Positions 22,161 to 53,893 of a stretch of DNA of 64,000 bases are shown here, piece by piece. This DNA comes from an uncultured Sulfitobacter sp. (GTDB lineage Bacteria; Pseudomonadota; Alphaproteobacteria; Rhodobacterales; Rhodobacteraceae). The position numbers and the translations under genes are program-made. Position 1 is the first letter of the stretch. Every line of letters starts with the position of its first letter. The stretch is taken from NCBI GenBank assembly GCA_937138475.1, contig CAKZPD010000022.1, forward strand, positions 1 through 64,000. The letters run 5' to 3'. The notes beneath the pieces were generated by a model. It saw only the letters and a list, made by a program, of their open reading frames with translations, had not been told where the DNA came from and ran no database searches.

Positions 22161-23066
22161 TTGCATATCGAATTTCGCCATTTACGCACCATTCAGGCCA
22201 TTCATTTGGCAGGCGGGCTGGCCCGCGCCGCCGAGCAGTTGCACATTACCCAGTCAGCGCTGAGCCATCAGATCAAAGGGCTGGAGGATCAGGCCGGGGT
22301 TGAGCTTTTTGTGCGGCGCTCCAAACCGCTGAAGCTGTCGCCGGCCGGGCTGCGGTTGCTGGCGCTGGCGCAGCAGGTCCTGCCGCAGGTCGAAGCCTTG
22401 CAGGACGAATTTTCGGGTCTGCGGGCCGGCAGCCATGGCCGCATGCATATCGCGATTGAATGCCACGCCTGTTTTGAATGGCTGTTCCCGGTGCTGGAGC
22501 GGTTTCGCCAAGCCTGGCCGGATGTGGATGTGGACATTCGACCGGGCCTGGCCTTTGAGGCCCTGCCGGCCTTGCTGAGGGAAGAGGTCGATCTGGTGGT
22601 GTCGTCGGACCCCGAGGACCTGCCGGGGGTGACATTTGTTGAGCTGTTTGATTATGCCCCGGTTTTTGTCGCGGCGCAAAACCATCCGCTGGCCGCCAAA
22701 CCCTTTATCGAGGCGGCGGATTTTCGCGCCGAGACGTTGATTACCTATCCGGTGGAGCGCAGCCGTCTGGATGTGTTTTCGCAACTGTTGATCCCGAACA
22801 AGGTGGAACCGGCCGCCATTCGGCAGGTGGAACTGACGGCGGTGATCTTGCTTTTGGTGGCGTCAAATCGCGGGGTGTCGGTGTTGCCCGATTGGGTGGT
22901 GCGCGAGGTCAAATACAGCTCAGATTATGTCACCCGCCCGCTGACCAAGGCCGGGATTACCCGGCGGCTTTATGCGGCGGTGCGCGAGGACGACAGGGGC
23001 AAGCCGTTCATGGAGAGTTTGTTGCAATTGGCCGGGCAAGAGGCGCGCAAGCTTCAGGCGCAATGA
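22161..23066 (+). CDS. metR: LysR-family regulator, probably MetR
   Basis: This 301-residue regulator has an N-terminal winged helix (RHLRTIQAIHLAGGLARAAEQLHITQSALSHQIKGLE, about 6-42) and a periplasmic-binding-protein-like effector domain (about 90-295). MetR senses homocysteine and controls methionine genes. The assignment rests on divergence from metF, the perfect MetR box between the genes, and overall resemblance to MetR (for example LSHQIKGLEDQ and VELFVRRSKPLKLSPAG). The start is a TTG at 22161, directly before HIEFRHL. A dispersed repeat copy lies just after the gene. Confidence 0.85.
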   Translation: MHIEFRHLRTIQAIHLAGGLARAAEQLHITQSALSHQIKGLEDQAGVELFVRRSKPLKLSPAGLRLLALAQQVLPQVEALQDEFSGLRAGSHGRMHIAIECHACFEWLFPVLERFRQAWPDVDVDIRPGLAFEALPALLREEVDLVVSSDPEDLPGVTFVELFDYAPVFVAAQNHPLAAKPFIEAADFRAETLITYPVERSRLDVFSQLLIPNKVEPAAIRQVELTAVILLLVASNRGVSVLPDWVVREVKYSSDYVTRPLTKAGITRRLYAAVREDDRGKPFMESLLQLAGQEARKLQAQ

Positions 23067-23385: not shown

Positions 23386-23871
23386 CTATTGATTGCGGTT
23401 TATGACGGCCAGCCGGTCGAGCGCCCCTTGCAGGATATACCCGGCGGCGACGTGGTCGATCACCTGGGCGCGACGTTTTCGTGACGTATCCGCCTCGAGC
23501 AGGGCGCGTTCTGCTGCGACGGTGCTGAGGCGTTCGTCCCAGAAGGTGATCGGGGTTTGCGCAAAGGCGGGCAGGCGCAGCAGGTTGCGAGCGAAGGCGC
23601 GGGTGGATTGGCAGCGCGGGCCTTCGCTGCCGTCCATGTTGCGGGGCAGGCCGAGGATCAGCCCGCCGATGCTGCGGTCCTGGACGATTTTGGCCAAGGC
23701 GTCGGCATCGAGCGAGAATTTGCGCCGGCGGATGGTTTCAAGCGGGGTGGCGATGCTGAGCCAGGTGTCGCTGACGGCGACGCCGATGGTTTTGTCGCCA
23801 AGGTCAAGGCCGGCCAGGGCCTGAAATCGGGGCAAGGCGGCTGAGAGCTGTTCGAGATCGTCGTAGATCAT
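23386..23871 (-). CDS. ruvX: RuvX/YqgF family RNase H-fold nuclease
   Basis: YqgF proteins are RNase H-fold nucleases implicated in 16S rRNA 5'-end processing and annotated as putative Holliday junction resolvases. The 161-residue protein shows GLDLGDKTIGVAVSD (first acidic residue), IGGLILGLPRNMDGSEG, the DERLSTVAAE strand and a late acidic residue in VIDHVAAGYIL. The ATG at 23871 overlaps the ccmI stop by four bases, so the genes are coupled. A 49-residue extension upstream is out of character. Confidence 0.92.
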   Translation of the reverse strand: MIYDDLEQLSAALPRFQALAGLDLGDKTIGVAVSDTWLSIATPLETIRRRKFSLDADALAKIVQDRSIGGLILGLPRNMDGSEGPRCQSTRAFARNLLRLPAFAQTPITFWDERLSTVAAERALLEADTSRKRRAQVIDHVAAGYILQGALDRLAVINRNQ

Positions 23872-25070
23872 TCGCCAAGGCCCGCCTGCTGTGCGGCCTG
23901 GGACAAGATGGCTTGGGCCTGGGCGTCGTCTTTGAAGGCCTGTTGCGCGTCGGTCAGCACGGCTTGGGCCTCGGGGAGGCGGTTCAGCACCGCCAGCGCG
24001 GTGATCAGCTGGGCCCATTTTTGCACCGGGCCACCCCGATCCGAGAGTTCGTCCGACAGGCCGCGCACCATGGCATTGATCATGGCGCTGCGATCGCTGG
24101 CGCTTAGATCTTGTGCGGCGGCGATATCGCTGGCGTCCGGGCCTTTGGTCGGGGGGGTATACTCTGCCCCGGCCAGCGCGGCGATCTGTTCTATCTGGGC
24201 GCGAATCGGGGCCACCCAGACATCGGTTTCGGCGCTGCTGCGCAGGAGGGTGTTCCAGATGCGAAAGGCCATATCGGGGCGGCCGGTCTGGGCCATCATC
24301 AGCCCCATATAATAGCGTGCGGTGCCGTTGTTTTGGTCAAGGGCCAGCGCGCGGGTCAGGATGTCTTCGGCCTGGGGCGAAACCAGACCGCCGGCGGCGA
24401 TCACCATCATATCGGCCTGGTTGACCAGATCGGCGGGGGTCGCGGCGTCGCCCTTGATACGCGTGATCTGGGCCAGGGCGCGGGCGGCGGCGGCATAATT
24501 GCCAAGGTTTGCTTCGTTTCGGGCGAGGAGTTCATGGCCTTGCAGATCATCGGGGCGGGATTGGACCGCTTGGCGCAGCTGATCCACAAGCGCCTGATAT
24601 TCAGGGCTGGGCGTGGCGGGGGCCGCCGCGGGCAGCGCCGCCTCAAGGGCGCTTTGCGAGGGGCGGCTTGCGCGGCGTTCCTGGGCCTGTGCCTTGCGCG
24701 CGGCCAGCGGCTGATCGGCATAGCCGGGCGCCCCCATCTGTTGATAAAGCCCAACGGCCAGCACCAGAAGTATGGCGGCCACCGCCGCACCAATCAGCCC
24801 TGCCCGCTGCGGTGACAGGGCGACCTGTGGGCGGGGGCTGGCGGCATCGGCGGCCAAAAGGCGCCGCGAAATTTCAAGGCGCAGGCGCTCGGCCTCGGCC
24901 GGCGAGATCAGCTTGCGGGCGATGTCGCGTTCGGTGTCGCGCAACTGGGCGCGGTATACATTCACATCATGGGCCGGGCGCGGGCCGTCATCGCGGGCGT
25001 GCCGCAGGGCCTTTGCCAGCACCCAAGCCACACAGAGCGTCAACCCCAGGGCGATTATCCAAAACGTCAT
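23868..25070 (-). CDS. ccmI: Cytochrome c biogenesis protein CcmI (CycH)
   Basis: CcmI is a membrane chaperone that holds apocytochrome c for the heme lyase. The 400-residue protein has an N-terminal helix (FWIIALGLTLCVAWVLAKA). A short cytoplasmic loop has the family string DVNVYRAQLRDTERD. A second helix lies near 100-115, and a long TPR-rich periplasmic part follows. The ATG at 25070 has AAGGAAA six bases upstream. It is 7.5 kb from the ccmABCDG run and on the opposite strand, so the maturation genes are split. Confidence 0.92.
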   Translation of the reverse strand: MTFWIIALGLTLCVAWVLAKALRHARDDGPRPAHDVNVYRAQLRDTERDIARKLISPAEAERLRLEISRRLLAADAASPRPQVALSPQRAGLIGAAVAAILLVLAVGLYQQMGAPGYADQPLAARKAQAQERRASRPSQSALEAALPAAAPATPSPEYQALVDQLRQAVQSRPDDLQGHELLARNEANLGNYAAAARALAQITRIKGDAATPADLVNQADMMVIAAGGLVSPQAEDILTRALALDQNNGTARYYMGLMMAQTGRPDMAFRIWNTLLRSSAETDVWVAPIRAQIEQIAALAGAEYTPPTKGPDASDIAAAQDLSASDRSAMINAMVRGLSDELSDRGGPVQKWAQLITALAVLNRLPEAQAVLTDAQQAFKDDAQAQAILSQAAQQAGLGE

Positions 25071-25159
25071 GGTCTTTCCTTTTGTTGCCAACAGATGTAG
25101 CGGTGGCGGCGCTGGCGCAAAAGGGTCAAATCGCCGCTGATGCTGAAGAAATGGATCAA

Positions 25160-25196
25160 TTGCGACATCTGTCGCAAAAGCAGTGATTTATGTCGC
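25160..25196. promoter_or_regulatory. Candidate operator of the sox operon: TTGCGACA-TC-TGTCGCAA plus a further TGTCGC
   Basis: A perfect 18-bp palindrome (eight-base arms, centre TC) lies at 25160-25177. A third TGTCGC copy at 25191-25196 starts 21 bases after the one at 25170, two helical turns on the same face. All lie in the 207-bp gap between ccmI and soxB, 80-120 bp before the soxB ATG. The layout suits a dimeric activator or repressor of sarcosine catabolism; the protein is not identified here. Confidence 0.55.
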
Positions 25197-25277
25197 GCTG
25201 AGTATCCTCTTTTTCGGTATGGGGCGCAGAAGAGGCTTAGCCACTGCGTGTTCACGAATCCATTCCGGGGTGCCGAT

Positions 25278-26522
25278 ATGAAACGATATTCTGCTTTTGC
25301 CGTTGCCCGAGAGGCAGCCCGATTTCACACGGGATGGGAGCGCGCCTGGCGCAACCCGGCCCCCAAATCCAGATACGATGTGATAATCATCGGTGCAGGC
25401 GGGCATGGATTGGCCACGGCCTATTACCTGGGCAAGAATTTCGGCATCAAGAATGTCGCGATTATTGAAAAGGGCTGGCTCGGGGGCGGGAACACCGGGC
25501 GGAACACCACGATTATCCGGTCCAATTATTTGCAAGATCCGTCCGCGGCGCTTTATGAAAAATCGCGCAGCCTGTTTGAGACGATGTCCCAGGATCTGAA
25601 CTATAACGTGATGTTCAGCCCGCGCGGGGTGATCATGTTGGCCCAAACCCAGCACGAGGTGCGCGGCTATCAGCGCACCGCCCATGCCAATGCCCTGCAA
25701 GGGGTCAAAACCGAATTCATCAACCCGCAGCGGGTCAAGGAACTGGTGCCGATCATCAATCTGGATGGGCCGCGCTATCCGGTTCTGGGCGGTCTGTGGC
25801 AGGCGCGCGGCGGATCGGCGCGCCATGACGCGGTGGCCTGGGGCTATGCGCGGGCCTGTTCCGACATGGGCATGGATGTGATCCAGCAGTGCGAAGTCAC
25901 GGCCGTGCGCCGCGATGGCGGCAAGGTTGTCGGTGTCAGCACCACCAAGGGCGACATTGATTGTGACAAGCTGGGCATCGTGGTGGCGGGAAATTCCGGC
26001 CATGTGGCCGGGATGGCCGGTTTCCGTCTGCCGATCGAATCCGTGGCGCTTCAGGCGCTGGTGTCAGAGCCGATCAAACCCTGCATGGACGTGGTGGTGA
26101 TGGCCAACACGGTGCATGGCTACATGAGCCAGTCCGACAAGGGCGAGATGGTGATCGGCGGCGGCACCGATGGGTATAACAACTATACCCAGCGCGGCAG
26201 TTTCCATCATATCGAGGAAACCGTGCGCGCCCTTGTTGAAACCTTTCCGATGGTGTCGCGCCTGAAAATGCTGCGCCAGTGGGGCGGGATCGTCGATATC
26301 ACCGGGGATCGGTCGCCGATCCTGTCCAAGACGCCGGTCGAAAACGTCTTTATCAACTGTGGTTGGGGCACGGGCGGCTTTAAGGCGACGCCCGGTTCGG
26401 GCTGGGCCATGGCGGAATTGATGGCCAAGGGGCACGGGCCTTTGACCGATGCCTTTGGGATGGAACGCTTCCGCGAGGGTCGGTTCATCGACGAAAGCGT
26501 TGCGGCCGGGGTGGCGCACTGA
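25278..26522 (+). CDS. soxB: Sarcosine oxidase subunit beta
   Basis: SoxB is the catalytic flavoprotein subunit of heterotetrameric sarcosine oxidase, which demethylates sarcosine to glycine with hydrogen peroxide and methylene-THF as products. The 414-residue protein has the FAD motif IIIGAGGHGLATAYYLG (about 36-52) and GWLGGGNTGRNTTIIRSNY. The GGSARHD segment includes His183, the likely covalent FMN attachment site by comparison with characterised enzymes. The ATG at 25278 gives the usual N-terminus. It heads soxBDAG. Confidence 0.95.
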   Translation: MKRYSAFAVAREAARFHTGWERAWRNPAPKSRYDVIIIGAGGHGLATAYYLGKNFGIKNVAIIEKGWLGGGNTGRNTTIIRSNYLQDPSAALYEKSRSLFETMSQDLNYNVMFSPRGVIMLAQTQHEVRGYQRTAHANALQGVKTEFINPQRVKELVPIINLDGPRYPVLGGLWQARGGSARHDAVAWGYARACSDMGMDVIQQCEVTAVRRDGGKVVGVSTTKGDIDCDKLGIVVAGNSGHVAGMAGFRLPIESVALQALVSEPIKPCMDVVVMANTVHGYMSQSDKGEMVIGGGTDGYNNYTQRGSFHHIEETVRALVETFPMVSRLKMLRQWGGIVDITGDRSPILSKTPVENVFINCGWGTGGFKATPGSGWAMAELMAKGHGPLTDAFGMERFREGRFIDESVAAGVAH

Positions 26523-26607: not shown

Positions 26608-26937
26608 ATGTTGATTTTGACTTGCCCCATGTGCGGTGTGACCGCCGAGGAAACAGAATTCCATGGCGGCGGCGAAGCGCATCTGAAACGCTTTGGCCCC
26701 GGATCATCCGAGGATGAATTCGAAGGCTATCTGTTCATGCGCGAAAACCCCAAGGGCGTGCATTTTGAACGCTGGCGCCATGCCAATGGCTGCGGCAAGT
26801 GGTTCCATGCTGCGCGGTGCACCACCACGCTTGAGGTGTTTGGCACCTATGCGGCCCAAACCTATGAGCCACCCGCCGAGATCAAGGCGGTGATTTCCGA
26901 CAAGCGGCCCGGCTGGCGCTGGAGAGAACATTCATGA
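26608..26937 (+). CDS. soxD: Sarcosine oxidase subunit delta
   Basis: This small zinc-binding subunit of sarcosine oxidase has 109 residues. The zinc ligands are visible as Cys6 and Cys9 (CPMC) together with His58 and Cys62 (HANGC), the spacing known from the heterotetrameric enzyme. ERWRHANGCGKWFHAARCTTT is the family core. AAAGGAG lies eight bases before the ATG. It lies 85 bp after soxB and 45 bp before soxA. Confidence 0.95.
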   Translation: MLILTCPMCGVTAEETEFHGGGEAHLKRFGPGSSEDEFEGYLFMRENPKGVHFERWRHANGCGKWFHAARCTTTLEVFGTYAAQTYEPPAEIKAVISDKRPGWRWREHS

Positions 26938-26982: not shown

Positions 26983-29900
26983 ATGAGCACACGTCTTGCT
27001 ACTGGTGGTCGCTTGCTGACCAAAGATAAACCTGTCACTTTCCGCTTTAACGGCAAACAATTGCGCGGCTATGAAGGTGATACGCTGGCCTCGGCTTTGC
27101 TGGCCAATGACCAGATGTTGGTTGGCCGATCGTTCAAATACCACCGTCCGCGCGGCATCGTTGCCTCGGGCGCGGAAGAACCCAATGGGTTGGTCAATAT
27201 GGGCGACGAGGGCAAATTCGAACCCAACCAGCGCGTAACCACCACCGAACTGTTTGACGGGCTAAGCGCGACAAGCCAAAACCACTGGCCCAGCCTTGAA
27301 TTCGACGTGGGCGTGATCAACAAATATATGTCGCGCTTTATGCCGGCTGGGTTTTATTACAAAACCTTCATGTATCCGCGCGCCTTCTGGAAACATGTAT
27401 ACGAGCCGTTCATCCGTCAGGCCGCCGGTCTGGGCAAGGCGCCCAAGGCGCGCGATGTCGATACATATGAGCATTATCATGCCTTTTGCGATGTGCTGGT
27501 CATTGGCGGCGGTGTTGCCGGCCTGCTGGCGGCAAAAACGGCGGCGCAATCTGGCGCCAAGGTGATGCTGATCGAACAGACCGCCCATTGGGGTGGACGT
27601 GCCCCGGTTGATGGCGGCACCGTTGACGGCGATCCGGTCGAAGACTTTGTTGAAAAAACCGTGGCCGAGCTGGCGTCGATGGAAAATGTCACGCTGCGCA
27701 ACCGCACCATGGGGGCCGGGGTTTACGACCACGGTTATGTGCTGGGCTATGAGCGTCTGACAGATCACGCGCCCGAGGCCGCAGGACCGCGCCACCGTTT
27801 GTGGCGGGTGCGGGCCGGGCATATCATCACCGCGACGGGGGCCATTGAACGGCCGCTGTCCTTTGCGGGCAATGATATTCCGGGGGTCATGTTGGCGTCA
27901 GCCGTGCGCGACTATGTGGCCAATTGGGGCGTGTCGATTGGCGACCGCACGGTGATCGTCACCAACAATGATGATGCGTATCTGACCGCCTTTGCGTTGA
28001 AATTTGCCGGTCTTGAGGTGCCCGCAATCGTCGATGCCCGCCCCGCGGGCGATGAAAGCCCGGCGATGGCGCAGGCCAAGGCGCTGGGCCTGCGGGTGCT
28101 GCATGGCCACGGCATCGCCAAGGTCAAGGGCAACAAGCGCGTCACCGGCGTTGCCATCTGTGCCCAGGCCGGCGAAGGCGCCGTGCTTGAGGAAATCACC
28201 TGTGATGCGGTGGCTATGTCGGGCGGCTGGTCGCCGGTTGTTCACCTGTGGTCCCATTGCGGCGGCAAGCTGGCCTGGGATGACGCCCAGGCGTTCTTTA
28301 AACCTGATCGCGACAAGGCGCCAACCGGTGCGGATGGCGCCGGCTTTGTCACGGCGGCGGGCGCGGCCAGTGGCGCGTTGATCCTGTCTGATGCGTTGGG
28401 CGATGCCCATGCAGCCGGTCAGGCCGCAGCCAAGGCGGCGGGATTTACTGCGCGCAAAACCAAGGCCCCCAAGGGCGAAACCCCGGCCGAGGCACCGATG
28501 CTGCCGGTGTGGATGATGCCGCAGGGCGCCAGCGCCCCGCTGCGCGCCAAGGCGTGGCTGGATTACCAGAACGATGTCAAGGTGTCTGACGTGCAGCTGG
28601 CTGCGCGCGAAGGGTTTGAGAGCGTCGAACACGCCAAGCGCTATACCACGTTGGGCATGGCGACAGATCAAGGAAAGCTTAGCAATATCAACGGTCTTGC
28701 GACGCTTGCCGGGGCATTGGATACGCCTATCCCGCAGGTCGGCACCACCACATTCCGCCCGCCCTATACGCCCATTTCCATGGGCGCGATCGGCGGCGAG
28801 GCCCGCGCCGAGGTGTTTCAGCCCATTCGCCGCACACCGATGCACGATTGGCATGACACCAACGGCGCGGATTGGGAACCTGTCGGCCATTGGCGGCGTC
28901 CCTATGCCTTTGTGCGCGATGGCGAAAGCACCCATGACGCGGTCATGCGTGAGGTGGTGAACACCCGCCAGAACCTGGGGCTGCTCGATGCGTCAACCCT
29001 GGGCAAGCTGGTCGTCAAGGGACCAGACGCCGGTAAATTTCTCGACATGCTCTATACCAATATGATGAGCACCCTAAAGCCGGGAAAATGCCGCTATGGG
29101 CTGATGTGTTCCGAAAACGGGTTCTTGATTGACGACGGCGTTGTGGCGCGGATCGACGAGGATACATTCCTGTGTCACACCACCACCGGCGGCGCCGAGC
29201 GCATTCACGGCCATATGGAAGAATGGCTGCAAACCGAATGGTGGGATTGGAAGGTCTATGTCGCCAATGTGACCGAGCAATATGCACAGGTTGCCGTTGT
29301 CGGCCCGAACGCCCGCAAGGTTCTGGAAAAGCTGGGCGGCATGGATGTCTCGAAAGAGGCGCTTGGCTTCATGGAATGGGCCGATGGCGAAATCGGCGGG
29401 TTCAAGGCGCGGGTTTACCGGATTTCATTCTCGGGCGAGCTGTCTTACGAAATCGCCGTGGACGCGGGGCAGGGCCAGGCGTTTTGGGATGCCCTGATGG
29501 CTGCGGGTGCAGAATTTGGCGCCATGCCTTATGGCACGGAATGCCTGCATATTCTGCGCGCCGAAAAAGGCTTTATCATGATCGGGGATGAAACGGACGG
29601 CACCATCATTCCCCAGGATCTGGGCCTGAACTGGGCGATTTCCAAGAAAAAAGAGGATTATCTGGGCAAACGCGCGCAGGCGCGTTCGCATATGACCGAT
29701 CCTGAGCGGTGGAAGCTGGTCGGGCTTGAGACGGTGGATGGATCGACCCTGCCTGATGGCGCTTATGCGGCGGGCGAGGGGGTCAATGCCAACGGTCAGC
29801 GCAATGTGATTGGGCGGGTAACATCGACCTATCATTCGCCGACGCTGGGCCGCGGCATTGCCATGGGCCTTGTCCTGCATGGACCCGACCGCATGGGCGA

Positions 29901-29997
29901 GGTCATAAGCTTTCCCGGCACCGACGGCAAAACCTATGAGGCGCGGATTGTCGATCCGGTCTTCTATGACAAAGAAGGGGAAAAGCAAAATGTCTGA
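26983..29997 (+). CDS. soxA: Sarcosine oxidase subunit alpha
   Basis: SoxA is the 1004-residue scaffold subunit. The N-terminal part has the ferredoxin-like segment VTFRFNGKQLRGYEGDTLASAL. A dinucleotide-binding domain with VIGGGVAGLLAAKTAAQSGA (about 170-190, NAD) follows. The C-terminal 400 or so residues are an aminomethyltransferase (GcvT-like) domain that binds tetrahydrofolate and captures the one-carbon unit. The length is normal. Its last codons overlap soxG by eight bases. Confidence 0.96.
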   Translation: MSTRLATGGRLLTKDKPVTFRFNGKQLRGYEGDTLASALLANDQMLVGRSFKYHRPRGIVASGAEEPNGLVNMGDEGKFEPNQRVTTTELFDGLSATSQNHWPSLEFDVGVINKYMSRFMPAGFYYKTFMYPRAFWKHVYEPFIRQAAGLGKAPKARDVDTYEHYHAFCDVLVIGGGVAGLLAAKTAAQSGAKVMLIEQTAHWGGRAPVDGGTVDGDPVEDFVEKTVAELASMENVTLRNRTMGAGVYDHGYVLGYERLTDHAPEAAGPRHRLWRVRAGHIITATGAIERPLSFAGNDIPGVMLASAVRDYVANWGVSIGDRTVIVTNNDDAYLTAFALKFAGLEVPAIVDARPAGDESPAMAQAKALGLRVLHGHGIAKVKGNKRVTGVAICAQAGEGAVLEEITCDAVAMSGGWSPVVHLWSHCGGKLAWDDAQAFFKPDRDKAPTGADGAGFVTAAGAASGALILSDALGDAHAAGQAAAKAAGFTARKTKAPKGETPAEAPMLPVWMMPQGASAPLRAKAWLDYQNDVKVSDVQLAAREGFESVEHAKRYTTLGMATDQGKLSNINGLATLAGALDTPIPQVGTTTFRPPYTPISMGAIGGEARAEVFQPIRRTPMHDWHDTNGADWEPVGHWRRPYAFVRDGESTHDAVMREVVNTRQNLGLLDASTLGKLVVKGPDAGKFLDMLYTNMMSTLKPGKCRYGLMCSENGFLIDDGVVARIDEDTFLCHTTTGGAERIHGHMEEWLQTEWWDWKVYVANVTEQYAQVAVVGPNARKVLEKLGGMDVSKEALGFMEWADGEIGGFKARVYRISFSGELSYEIAVDAGQGQAFWDALMAAGAEFGAMPYGTECLHILRAEKGFIMIGDETDGTIIPQDLGLNWAISKKKEDYLGKRAQARSHMTDPERWKLVGLETVDGSTLPDGAYAAGEGVNANGQRNVIGRVTSTYHSPTLGRGIAMGLVLHGPDRMGEVISFPGTDGKTYEARIVDPVFYDKEGEKQNV

Positions 29998-30571
29998 GCA
30001 AGCAACACTGTCGCAGACAGCTTTGGGCGGCGCGCGTTATGATGCGGGGATTGCCACGATTGTCGAAGCCCCCCTGCAAGGGATGATCACCCTGCGCGGT
30101 GATTTGGCCAGCGCCAAGGTCAAGAACGCCGCCACCGGGGTGGCCGGGGTGGACATGCCCGGTCAGCGCCAGGTCAATTGTGTTGAACAAAGCGGCATCG
30201 CCTGGATGTCGCCGGATGAATTGCTGGTGCTGTGCCCCTATGCGGATGTGGCCGCGAATATGGCAAAGATGCAAAAGACGCTGGGCAAGGGCCATGCGTT
30301 GGCGGTGAATGTGTCGGATGCCCGCGCCATGTTCCACCTTGGCGGAACCCATGCGCGCGATGTGATGGCAAAATTGGCGCCGGTGGATCTGCGGCGCGAT
30401 CAATTCACCCCCGGCATGATCCGGCGCACCCGGATGGCACAGGTGGCCGCAGCCTTTTGGGTTGATGGCGATGACCGCTTCAGCATCATCTGTTTCCGCA
30501 GCCAGGCGCAATATGTCTTTGACCTGCTCAAGATCGCCGCTCAGCCCGGATCCGAGGTGGGGCATATCTGA
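29990..30571 (+). CDS. soxG: Sarcosine oxidase subunit gamma
   Basis: The 193-residue gamma subunit completes the heterotetramer. It has a GcvT-like fold without catalytic residues. Typical strings are WMSPDELLVLCP, GHALAVNVSDARAMFHLGG and the C-terminal ICFRSQAQYVFDLL. The ATG lies within the end of soxA. It is followed 30 bp later by a strong terminator that closes the operon. Unlike some sox operons, no folate-recycling gene such as purU, glyA or folD is attached. Confidence 0.94.
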   Translation: MSEQATLSQTALGGARYDAGIATIVEAPLQGMITLRGDLASAKVKNAATGVAGVDMPGQRQVNCVEQSGIAWMSPDELLVLCPYADVAANMAKMQKTLGKGHALAVNVSDARAMFHLGGTHARDVMAKLAPVDLRRDQFTPGMIRRTRMAQVAAAFWVDGDDRFSIICFRSQAQYVFDLLKIAAQPGSEVGHI

Positions 30572-30779: not shown

Positions 30780-31379
30780 ATGGCTTTTGAACTTCCTGAT
30801 CTTCCCTATGCCCATGACGCATTGGCGGCAAAAGGCATGTCCGCCGAGACCTTGGAATATCACCACGATCTGCATCACAATGCCTATGTCACCAATGGCA
30901 ATGCGGCGATCAAGGGCACCGAATGGGATGGCAAAAGCCTGGAAGAGATCATCACCGGCACCTATAACCCCACAGCCGTTGCGCAAAACGGAATTTTCAA
31001 CAACATCAGCCAGTTGTGGAACCACAACCAGTTTTGGGAAATGATGGGCCCCGGCGCAAGCGCCATGCCCGGCGAATTGGAAAAGGCACTGGTGGAAAGC
31101 TTTGGGTCGGTTGATCAGTTCAAGGCCGATTTTTCGGCGGCCGGCGCCGGTCAGTTCGGGTCAGGCTGGGCTTGGCTGGTCAAGGACAAAGACGGCAGCC
31201 TGAAAGTGACCAAAACGGAAAACGGCGTGAACCCGCTGTGCTTTGGTCAAACGGCGCTGTTGGGCTGTGATGTGTGGGAACATTCCTATTATATCGATTT
31301 CCGCAACAAACGCCCGGCCTATCTGACCAATTTCCTGGACAACCTGGTCAATTGGGAAAACGTCGCGTCGCGGATGTAA
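30780..31379 (+). CDS. sodB: Superoxide dismutase, iron type
   Basis: The enzyme converts superoxide to hydrogen peroxide and oxygen in the cytoplasm. The 199-residue protein has metal ligands in LEYHHDLHHNAYV, NISQLWNHNQFW and DVWEHSYYIDFRN. The glutamine in NISQLWNH is at the position that marks iron rather than manganese dismutases. GGGGCCCAAA precedes the ATG without a strong Shine-Dalgarno match. It is monocistronic, with its own terminator, directly after the peroxide-producing sarcosine oxidase operon; the adjacency need not be functional. Confidence 0.96.
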   Translation: MAFELPDLPYAHDALAAKGMSAETLEYHHDLHHNAYVTNGNAAIKGTEWDGKSLEEIITGTYNPTAVAQNGIFNNISQLWNHNQFWEMMGPGASAMPGELEKALVESFGSVDQFKADFSAAGAGQFGSGWAWLVKDKDGSLKVTKTENGVNPLCFGQTALLGCDVWEHSYYIDFRNKRPAYLTNFLDNLVNWENVASRM

Positions 31380-44519: not shown

Positions 44520-44619
44520 GGCGGCATGTCGTTTTTTTCCCGCGATGGCCGCAAATCGGGAGCGCAGGGCAGCGGGGATGGGGTAGCTAGGCGGCAATCA
44601 TGACATCAAGGGGATTTCC

Positions 44620-46161
44620 ATGTCAGAAGCTGAACGCAGACGGGGACGCGGGGGTGGCGGGGCCGCCCGCCGGGCCGCCCGCAGTGCCGTATCTTTTGAA
44701 ACGGCGCGGTATATTGAGCGCAACATTCCCAATTTCGAGGTTTTGACCGAGGAGGCGCTGGAGATTATCGAGACCAACGCCGAGACGATCCTGGCCGAGG
44801 TGGGGGTGAACTTTGTCGAGAACCCCGCCGCGTTGCAGCGCTGGCGGGATGCGGGCGCGGATGTGGATGGTGAGCGGGTGCGCATTCCGCGCGGCCTGGC
44901 GCGCCAGCTGTGCAAGACGGCGCCTTCGGTCTTTACCCAGCATGCGCGCAATCCTGAGCGGAATGTGGTCATCGGCGGGCGCAACCTGGTGCTGGCGCCG
45001 GTCTATGGGCCGCCATTCGTGCGCGACGCCGAGGGCGGTCGGCGTTATGCGACCATGGAGGATTTCCGCAAGTTTGTTAAGCTGGGCTATATGTCCAAGT
45101 GGTTGCACCATTCTGGCGGCACGGTGTGCGAGCCAACAGATGTGCCGGTGAACAAGCGGCATCTGGATATGCTGCATGCGCATATGACGCTGAGCGACAA
45201 GCCTTTCATGGGCTCGGTTACTGAGCCAAGCCGCGCGCAGGATTCCGTTGAGATGTGCGAAGTTCTGTTTGGCAAGGAATTCGTGCAGCAAAACACCGTG
45301 ATGACATCGCTGATCAACATCAACTCGCCCATGACATTTGACGATGTGATGATGGGCGCGCTTGAGGTTTATGCCGCGAACAATCAGGCTTGCATCATTT
45401 CCCCCTTTATCGTTGGCGGGGCCATGGCGCCGGTGTCGGTTGCGGGCACGTTGACGCAGGTTCTGGCCGAGGTTCTGGCCGGCATCGCCTATTCGCAACT
45501 GATCCGTCCCGGTGCGCCGGTGATTTTTGGCGCCTTTGTGACGTCGATTGACATGAATTCAGGCGCGCCGACCTTTGGCACGCCCGAGGCGTCGCATATC
45601 ACCTATGGTGCGGGTCAGCTGGCCCGGCGGATGGGGCTGCCGTTCCGGTCGGCCGGATCCTTCTGTGGTTCCAAGCTGCCGGACGCGCAGGCTGCCTATG
45701 AAACCGCCAACAGTCTGAACATGGGGCTGTTGTCGGGCGTCAACTTTATGCTGCATTCCTGTGGCTGGCTTGAGGGCGGTTTGGTTTCATCCTTTGAGAA
45801 ATTCGTCATGGACGCCGATCAGCTGGGCACCCTGCATCATCTGGCACAGGGTGTTGCCGTCGATGACAATGCCCAGGCCATGGGCGCAATCCGCGAGGTG
45901 GGGCCCGGCGGGCATTACCTGGGATGCGAGCATACGCAAAACAACTTTAAGACCGCGTTTTGGAAGTCTGATTTGCTTGACTATAAGCCCTATGAAACCT
46001 GGGAGGACGAAGGCGCACGCGATACGCAGGCGCTGGCGGCCTTGCGGGTCAAGAAGCTTTTGGCCGATTATCAGCAACCGGCGATGGATCCGGCAATCTC
46101 TGAGGCGCTGACCGAATATGTCGCCCGCAAAAAGGCGGCCGAGCCTGACAGCTTTATGTAA
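44620..46161 (+). CDS. MttB-family methyltransferase, non-pyrrolysine type
   Basis: The 513-residue protein belongs to the trimethylamine methyltransferase superfamily, which in bacteria includes glycine betaine (MtgB-like) and related quaternary-amine demethylases using a corrinoid partner. The frame is uninterrupted, so no pyrrolysine codon is used. Family strings are TEEALEIIETNAETILAEVGV near the start, then KWLHHSGGTVCEPTDV, NSPMTFDDVMMGALEVYAANNQ and MNSGAPTFGTPEASHITYGAGQLARR. The N-terminus is a short Arg/Gly-rich tail. No corrinoid protein gene is adjacent. The substrate is unproven. Confidence 0.88.
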   Translation: MSEAERRRGRGGGGAARRAARSAVSFETARYIERNIPNFEVLTEEALEIIETNAETILAEVGVNFVENPAALQRWRDAGADVDGERVRIPRGLARQLCKTAPSVFTQHARNPERNVVIGGRNLVLAPVYGPPFVRDAEGGRRYATMEDFRKFVKLGYMSKWLHHSGGTVCEPTDVPVNKRHLDMLHAHMTLSDKPFMGSVTEPSRAQDSVEMCEVLFGKEFVQQNTVMTSLININSPMTFDDVMMGALEVYAANNQACIISPFIVGGAMAPVSVAGTLTQVLAEVLAGIAYSQLIRPGAPVIFGAFVTSIDMNSGAPTFGTPEASHITYGAGQLARRMGLPFRSAGSFCGSKLPDAQAAYETANSLNMGLLSGVNFMLHSCGWLEGGLVSSFEKFVMDADQLGTLHHLAQGVAVDDNAQAMGAIREVGPGGHYLGCEHTQNNFKTAFWKSDLLDYKPYETWEDEGARDTQALAALRVKKLLADYQQPAMDPAISEALTEYVARKKAAEPDSFM

Positions 46162-53670: not shown

Positions 53671-53782
53671 ACCGATCCCCTTTGCTTTGGCCACCGTTTT
53701 GGCCTGCGCATTGCTTGGCCTTGGCCTTTGTTCTTTGCGCTTCTTCCTTAGGGGCTTTGGCGTGATCATTCAATTGGCGGCT

Positions 53783-53803
53783 ATTGCCTAAAATTTAGGC
53801 AAT
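53783..53803. promoter_or_regulatory. 21-bp palindrome with NtrC-box geometry upstream of dusB-ntrBC
   Basis: Ten-base perfect arms ATTGCCTAAA and TTTAGGCAAT surround a single central A. The outer TGC and GCA are 11 bases apart, the same spacing as in enterobacterial NtrC sites. It lies 90 bp upstream of the dusB start, in the 223-bp divergent gap with ispDF. Control of the operon by its own NtrC is a plausible inference. Confidence 0.6.
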
Positions 53804-53893
53804 TGGCCGTTCGGGCCGGGCGCAAAGCCGCATATTTATTGAGCCTGCGGGGTTTGATGGCTACAAGGGCGCATCTGCACAAGGATTAAGCAT

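Follow-up and report, generated by a model that had tools for sequence, protein, structure and literature searches.

What protein, if any, recognizes the symmetrical sequence that stands in front of the sarcosine oxidase operon soxBDAG in this uncultured Sulfitobacter? The whole stretch of DNA analysed here (the window, 64,000 nucleotides) carries TTGCGACA-TC-TGTCGCAA, that is TTGCGACATCTGTCGCAA, at 25160-25177. A further TGTCGC follows 21 bases after the first one (25170-25175). These letters were read directly in the window, and they are just where the preliminary description had placed them. The site lies upstream of soxB (ATG 25278), between it and a minus-strand gene (23868-25091). Two readings had been offered: a dimer sitting on the palindrome with an additional monomer on the third half-site, or an AraC-type activator that uses the direct repeats. 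We argue for the latter. The feature is probably the operator of a trans-acting activator of the GATase1-type AraC family, related to GbdR and SouR.

Table 1. Positions in the window of the sites and genes discussed in the text.
Feature	Position	Strand	Remarks
Left palindrome arm TTGCGACA	25160..25167	.	judged coincidental
Distal half-site TGTCGCAA of direct repeat	25170..25177	+	TGTCG core: G, T, C, G invariant in 81/81 fitted sites, T in 77
Proximal half-site TGTCGC, 21 bp downstream	25191..25196	+	G, C, G of YGNCGY invariant in 81/81 fitted sites
GTATCC block right after repeat	25202..25207	+	columns +32 and +33: 0.66 and 0.53 bit in the 81-site alignment
Possible -10 region, CAGAAG	25227..25232	+	columns +58, +59, +61: C 56, A 66, A 60 of 81
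soxB, sarcosine oxidase beta subunit	25278..26522	+	TIGR01373, 632 bits, over cut-off
soxD, delta subunit (start by eye)	26608..26937	+	PF04267 over cut-off
soxA, alpha subunit	26983..29997	+	GCV_T, SO_alpha_A3, Fer2_4 over cut-off
soxG, gamma subunit (start by eye)	29990..30571	+	PF04268 over cut-off
Weaker candidate site TGTCGT-N14-GGCCGC, 20 bp spacing	44527..44552	+	93 nt before mtgB-like ATG
MttB/MtgB-family methyltransferase (mtgB-like) gene	44620..46161	+	63% identical to the G019 MttB-family protein near soxB and regulator

Symmetry and repetition in front of soxB

The gapped 18-mer has a single exact match in the 2.82 Mb genome. Perfect 8-2-8 palindromes number 2 in the window, while 25 shuffles give 1.64 on average and 5 at most. 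If loops of 0 to 6 are allowed there are 22, against a shuffle mean of 14.9 (range 7-25, 25 shuffles). Since the 8-2-8 counts match those of the shuffles, the palindrome is not above chance. Elsewhere in the window the perfect inverted repeat ATTGCCTAAAATTTAGGCAAT (53783-53803), with arms of 8 to 10 bp and an AT-rich centre, lies between an ORF that ends at 53769 and one that starts at 53836.

Conservation is a separate line of reasoning. The upstream regions of 80 soxB orthologues, the best of a longer match list and 84-93% identical, were aligned with that of the window to give 81 regions. None of the 80 orthologous sites has kept the left palindrome arm intact, and the closest are three sites with mismatches at 2 of 8 positions. 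None of its eight columns holds more than 0.19 bit in the 81-site alignment. A palindromic operator of a dimeric repressor should have both arms conserved, and that is not what is found among these orthologues. We reject the palindrome as an operator on both counts, the unconserved left arm and the chance rate of 8-2-8 palindromes, and the suggestion that a dimer occupies the palindrome and a monomer the third half-site finds no support. The mirror-image pattern looks like a coincidence.

The direct repeat is a different matter. The fitted alignment consists of (A)TGTCGCAA, 13 bases and YGNCGY, and it is found at -89 to -145 in all 81 regions, with a matrix that was fitted on the same 81 sequences it describes. 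A regular expression that is independent of the fit finds the 21 bp repeat in 58/81 soxB upstream regions, with 0-12 at the remaining spacings between 14 and 30 bp. Across orthologues the repeat clearly exceeds what chance would give. This comparison of orthologous sox promoters had been proposed as the check, with absence of the motif as the refuting outcome. Within the family the absence did not occur, and it is the repeat and not the palindrome that is present. Outside the family only 3/26 soxB loci score at least 10, and the site there is mostly not recognisable.

Two conserved blocks follow the repeat, GT at +32/+33 (within a block from +32 to +36) and CA[AT]A at +58 to +61, and they may mark the promoter. 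The GTATCC block of the window is a possible second contact of the proximal monomer and/or a -35 region. CAGAAG is a candidate -10 region, and it must be noted that it matches the conserved CA[AT]A block poorly. Downstream of the operon, on the same strand after soxG, is an ORF (30780-31379) that by eye resembles an iron/manganese superoxide dismutase. Hydrogen peroxide is a product of sarcosine oxidase.

A candidate regulator encoded at a distance

The preliminary description held that a regulator would act in trans. This is correct for the host genome, where the candidate regulator is unlinked to sox. A LysR gene (22161-23066) adjoins metF and is two genes from sox. The genome encodes four GbdR-like AraC proteins (L101, L102, L103 and L104). 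L104 is the one we favor. It is truncated by the end of contig C2 and its remainder is found at the start of C29, and given the identical overlap of 25 residues the two contigs probably join at this gene. L104, the sole paralogue run against Pfam, has a DJ-1/PfpI domain (PF01965) and an HTH_18 domain (PF12833), the pair of DJ-1/PfpI and AraC HTH domains that was sought in a candidate regulator. Of the four it also comes closest to the GbdR model, with 328.6 bits for the fragment. This does not reach the 480-bit cut-off of the GbdR equivalog (NCBIfam NF052371), and neither do full-length orthologues from the family (374.9 and 377.5) or relatives of L104 that are adjacent to soxB (421.5 and 433).

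The regulator and the site tend to occur together, with exceptions. Orthologues of L104, 66-83% identical, are present in 50/50 of the site-bearing genomes tested, a sample of the 80 loci that was hand-picked and leans to isolates. In 29/50 there is no second match of the L104 type at E <= 1e-60, a cut-off too strict to detect proteins like L102 and L103. The set of 80 loci overlaps the set of family genomes, as L095's genome and G002 have identical regulator coordinates. The L095 record, which shares these coordinates with G002, is titled Enemella evansiae TN21-6 and bears a sox locus of the Rhodobacteraceae type; its title may be a misnomer. Apart from a fragment at the edge of L091, no AraC gene of the L104 type lies beside sox in the flanks of the 80 loci, which extend to at most 6 kb and less where a contig ends. 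There is little sign of autoregulation among the family orthologue loci L166-L182, where only L175 has an upstream site scoring above 20.

The 19 family genomes (G000-G018) can be considered one by one. An L104 orthologue is found in 17 and a soxB site scoring at least 10 in 14. Three of the 17 with the regulator (G010, G016 and G017) have no soxB site at that score. The genomes without L104 are G008 (82% complete) and G012 (99%), and both are among the five without a soxB site of at least 10. Both are without the 21 bp site; G012 retains the two half-sites at a spacing of 20 bp and also a serC site. The soxB site of G011 (L200) is GGTCGC-N15-GGTCGC, identical to the CdhR sequence, and this genome has a single match to the L104 type of regulator.

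A relative of L104 is found at E <= 1e-80 in 35 of 289 class-wide genomes. In 9/35 it is divergently oriented beside soxB with a gap of 231-445 nt (G251, G177, G183, G055, G281, G046, G135, G240 and G025), and these nine cases span five families. The relative is within 2.2 kb of soxB in 12/35. Good matches to the repeat occur in 2/8 of the regulator-soxB spacers scanned, G046 being left out (G025, score 20.3; G177, score 17.0). In a tree 7/8 of the soxB-adjacent relatives group with the L104 family clade (support 85/94), with G251 as the exception. L102 and L103 lie outside the soxB-adjacent group, while L101, on a long branch, is near the family clade. In G019 a stretch of about 22 kb contains soxB and the regulator together with an MttB-family gene and genes like mtgC and ramA, and the spacer between regulator and mtgC has TGTCGC-N15-TGTCGT (score 8.7).

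The suggested AraC-type activator on direct repeats is supported by the repeat (58/81), the co-occurring candidate (50/50) and the relatives adjacent to soxB (9/35). Taken as a whole, the earlier reading keeps its direct repeats and loses its palindromic dimer plus monomer.

We infer the following scenario. The protein encoded at the end of C2 and the start of C29 would act in trans, and two monomers of it would probably bind head to tail on the TGTCGC half-sites, which are separated by 21 bp (two helical turns) and immediately precede the sox promoter. The bound activator would help RNA polymerase to start soxBDAG. The trigger would be a product of glycine-betaine breakdown, either betaine, dimethylglycine or sarcosine. 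The same protein probably also controls ramA, serC and the mtgC-like gene, as well as the mtgB-like gene by way of a variant with 20 bp spacing.

Other promoters and competing explanations

The exact pattern occurs at only two places in the genome, soxB and serB/serC. With one mismatch there are 41 places (22 forward and 19 reverse), against 42 (17 and 25) in a reversed control, so pattern matches alone prove nothing about a regulon. The ramA-like activase gene has an upstream repeat scoring 20.7, and the mtgC-like corrinoid gene has an upstream site of 17.5 with a weak second half-site. The site of the window's mtgB-like gene fits the relaxed form only (GNCG..GNCG). Most of the genes with similar repeats belong to the B12-dependent glycine-betaine pathway described in 2025.

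Each promoter set was drawn from 18 family genomes (left out were G013 for ramA, where the gene is in two pieces, and G008 for mtgB, at a contig edge, and for serC, without a match). Strict 21 bp repeats are found before ramA in 9/18, against a maximum of 3 in 300 forward shuffle runs. Before serC they are found in 4/18 on the forward strand and 8/18 on either strand, and the forward shuffle maximum is 2 (300 runs). The mtgB promoters peak at 20 bp, with 7/18 by the strict regular expression against a forward shuffle maximum of 2 (300 runs), and 12/18 by GNCG..GNCG. At 21 bp they give 0/18 on the forward strand. R. pomeroyi has no site scoring above 15 in 400 kb of sequence that include the regulator gene as well as ramA, mtgB and mtgC. 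At lower scores it has a 21 bp repeat at ramA (11.8), a 20 bp repeat at mtgB and one clear half-site only at mtgC.

Some further sites in the genome are candidates by matrix score. These are C36:116278 (19.6), C33:119024 (16.8), C33:184100 (16.1, inside an ORF), C32:13516 (19.5, inside a sulfatase-like ORF) and C30:75754 (13.4). Another site, L383 (G000:C33:123715-123741), scores 20.6 and is about 145 nt before a gene resembling a DppB-type ABC permease. L303 (C22:125486-125512) scores 12.8. It falls within the longest ORF reading, just before the point (C22:125565) where a second MttB-family gene is matched. Some of the ORFs are presumably those of RuvC, a DppB-like permease and a sulfatase. 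One that we take to be ccmI-like has a sub-cut-off match to CcmH TPR in Pfam.

The site in front of soxB is of a known kind, and a new regulon is plausible and partly supported. Our tentative proposal is that a single GbdR/SouR-like activator, present in nearly all marine Rhodobacteraceae, brings the B12-dependent conversion of glycine betaine to one-carbon units (mtgB, mtgC, ramA and soxBDAG) and serine synthesis (serC) under common control. It would use a 20 bp operator variant at mtgB and would supply the regulator that the betaine/methionine-synthase pathway of 2025 has lacked. The 2025 paper on the B12-dependent betaine enzymes names no regulator in a whole-text term search. Ocean bacteria get nitrogen and one-carbon units from the breakdown of betaine. 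If the proposal is true, marine Rhodobacteraceae use one protein as the switch for sarcosine oxidase, corrinoid methyltransfer and serine synthesis.

One can imagine other scenarios. The palindrome could be the operator of a dimeric repressor of the GntR, TetR or MarR type, and the third half-site would then be incidental. It is perfect and unique in the genome, but this scenario has to accept a left arm that none of the 80 orthologues keeps and a size of palindrome that occurs at the chance rate in the window, and it leaves the conserved proximal half-site unexplained. We find it barely credible. Another scenario does without an AraC operator altogether and treats the repeat as a conserved promoter or RNA feature, or as a result of shared promoter ancestry. 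The conserved blocks after the repeat, from +32 to +36 and from +58 to +61, would suit that. However, the spacing and the half-site match a footprinted site of a GATase1-AraC protein (PMC5806209), and the spacing peaks recur before ramA, serC and mtgB, at serC on either strand. We consider such an origin very improbable.

It is also worth considering that the operator is of the AraC type and that the regulator is another one, either a paralogue (L101, L102 or L103) or a TmaR-like AraC protein. The genome does have four GbdR-like proteins, the tree places L101 close to the L104 family clade, and G012 has half-sites yet lacks L104. TmaR, moreover, activates methylated-amine genes in R. pomeroyi (PMC13390433). 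Against this, 29/50 site-bearing genomes have the L104 orthologue only, at a threshold that misses L102- and L103-like proteins, L102 and L103 themselves are outside the soxB-adjacent group, and 7/8 of the soxB-adjacent relatives are with the L104 clade. We consider a different regulator unlikely, and L104 remains our choice.

Comparison with known systems

TmaR of R. pomeroyi belongs to the AraC type and activates methylated-amine genes (PMC13390433), and like the regulator proposed here it serves methylated-amine catabolism in a Roseobacter. It differs in that it belongs to another gene cluster, and it is set beside L104 by description only. The words "motif" and "binding site" are absent from the text of PMC13390433. 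Betaine demethylation by MtgBCD and RamA in Ruegeria pomeroyi resembles the present case in its genes: the ramA-, mtgC- and mtgB-like genes bear candidate sites here. In that organism growth on N-osmolytes raises the levels of the MtgB, MtgC, MtgD and RamA proteins and of the predicted steps for dimethylglycine and sarcosine, according to the excerpted text of PMC12478193. A whole-text term search of PMC12478193 finds "regulator" once, in the title of a reference, and neither "AraC" nor "promoter". Judging by titles and the openings of abstracts, the papers found describe no regulator for the sox or mtg genes of Rhodobacteraceae.

GbdR and SouR of Pseudomonas aeruginosa are activators required for transcription of gbc, dgc and soxBDAG (PMC12093977). 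There soxBDAG transcription needs both and is induced by betaine/dimethylglycine and by sarcosine (PMC12093977). The likeness is that they are activators of soxBDAG, as proposed for L104, and that the L104 type is nearest to the GbdR model. The differences are that L104 and its relatives score 329-433 bits against the 480-bit GbdR cut-off, and that the pathway in the host, going by the genes found, would be the corrinoid MtgBCD route and not GbcAB.

The closest parallel to the site itself is the operator of CdhR at caiX in P. aeruginosa, footprinted as GGTCGC-N15-GGTCGC (PMC5806209). The same source, as excerpted, calls the CdhR site very similar to those of GbdR, SouR and ArgR (PMC5806209). 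The half-sites here are mostly TGTCGCAA and YGNCGY instead, the target is soxBDAG, and the regulator is unlinked in the host genome. In both cases direct GTCGC half-sites with a 21 bp period stand upstream of the promoter of a betaine-related catabolic operon, with a GATase1-AraC protein as the regulator, established for CdhR and proposed here. The site before soxB has what operators of the GbdR/CdhR/SouR/ArgR type have: two direct GTCGC-type half-sites and a period of 21 bp, with N15 between the 6-mers.
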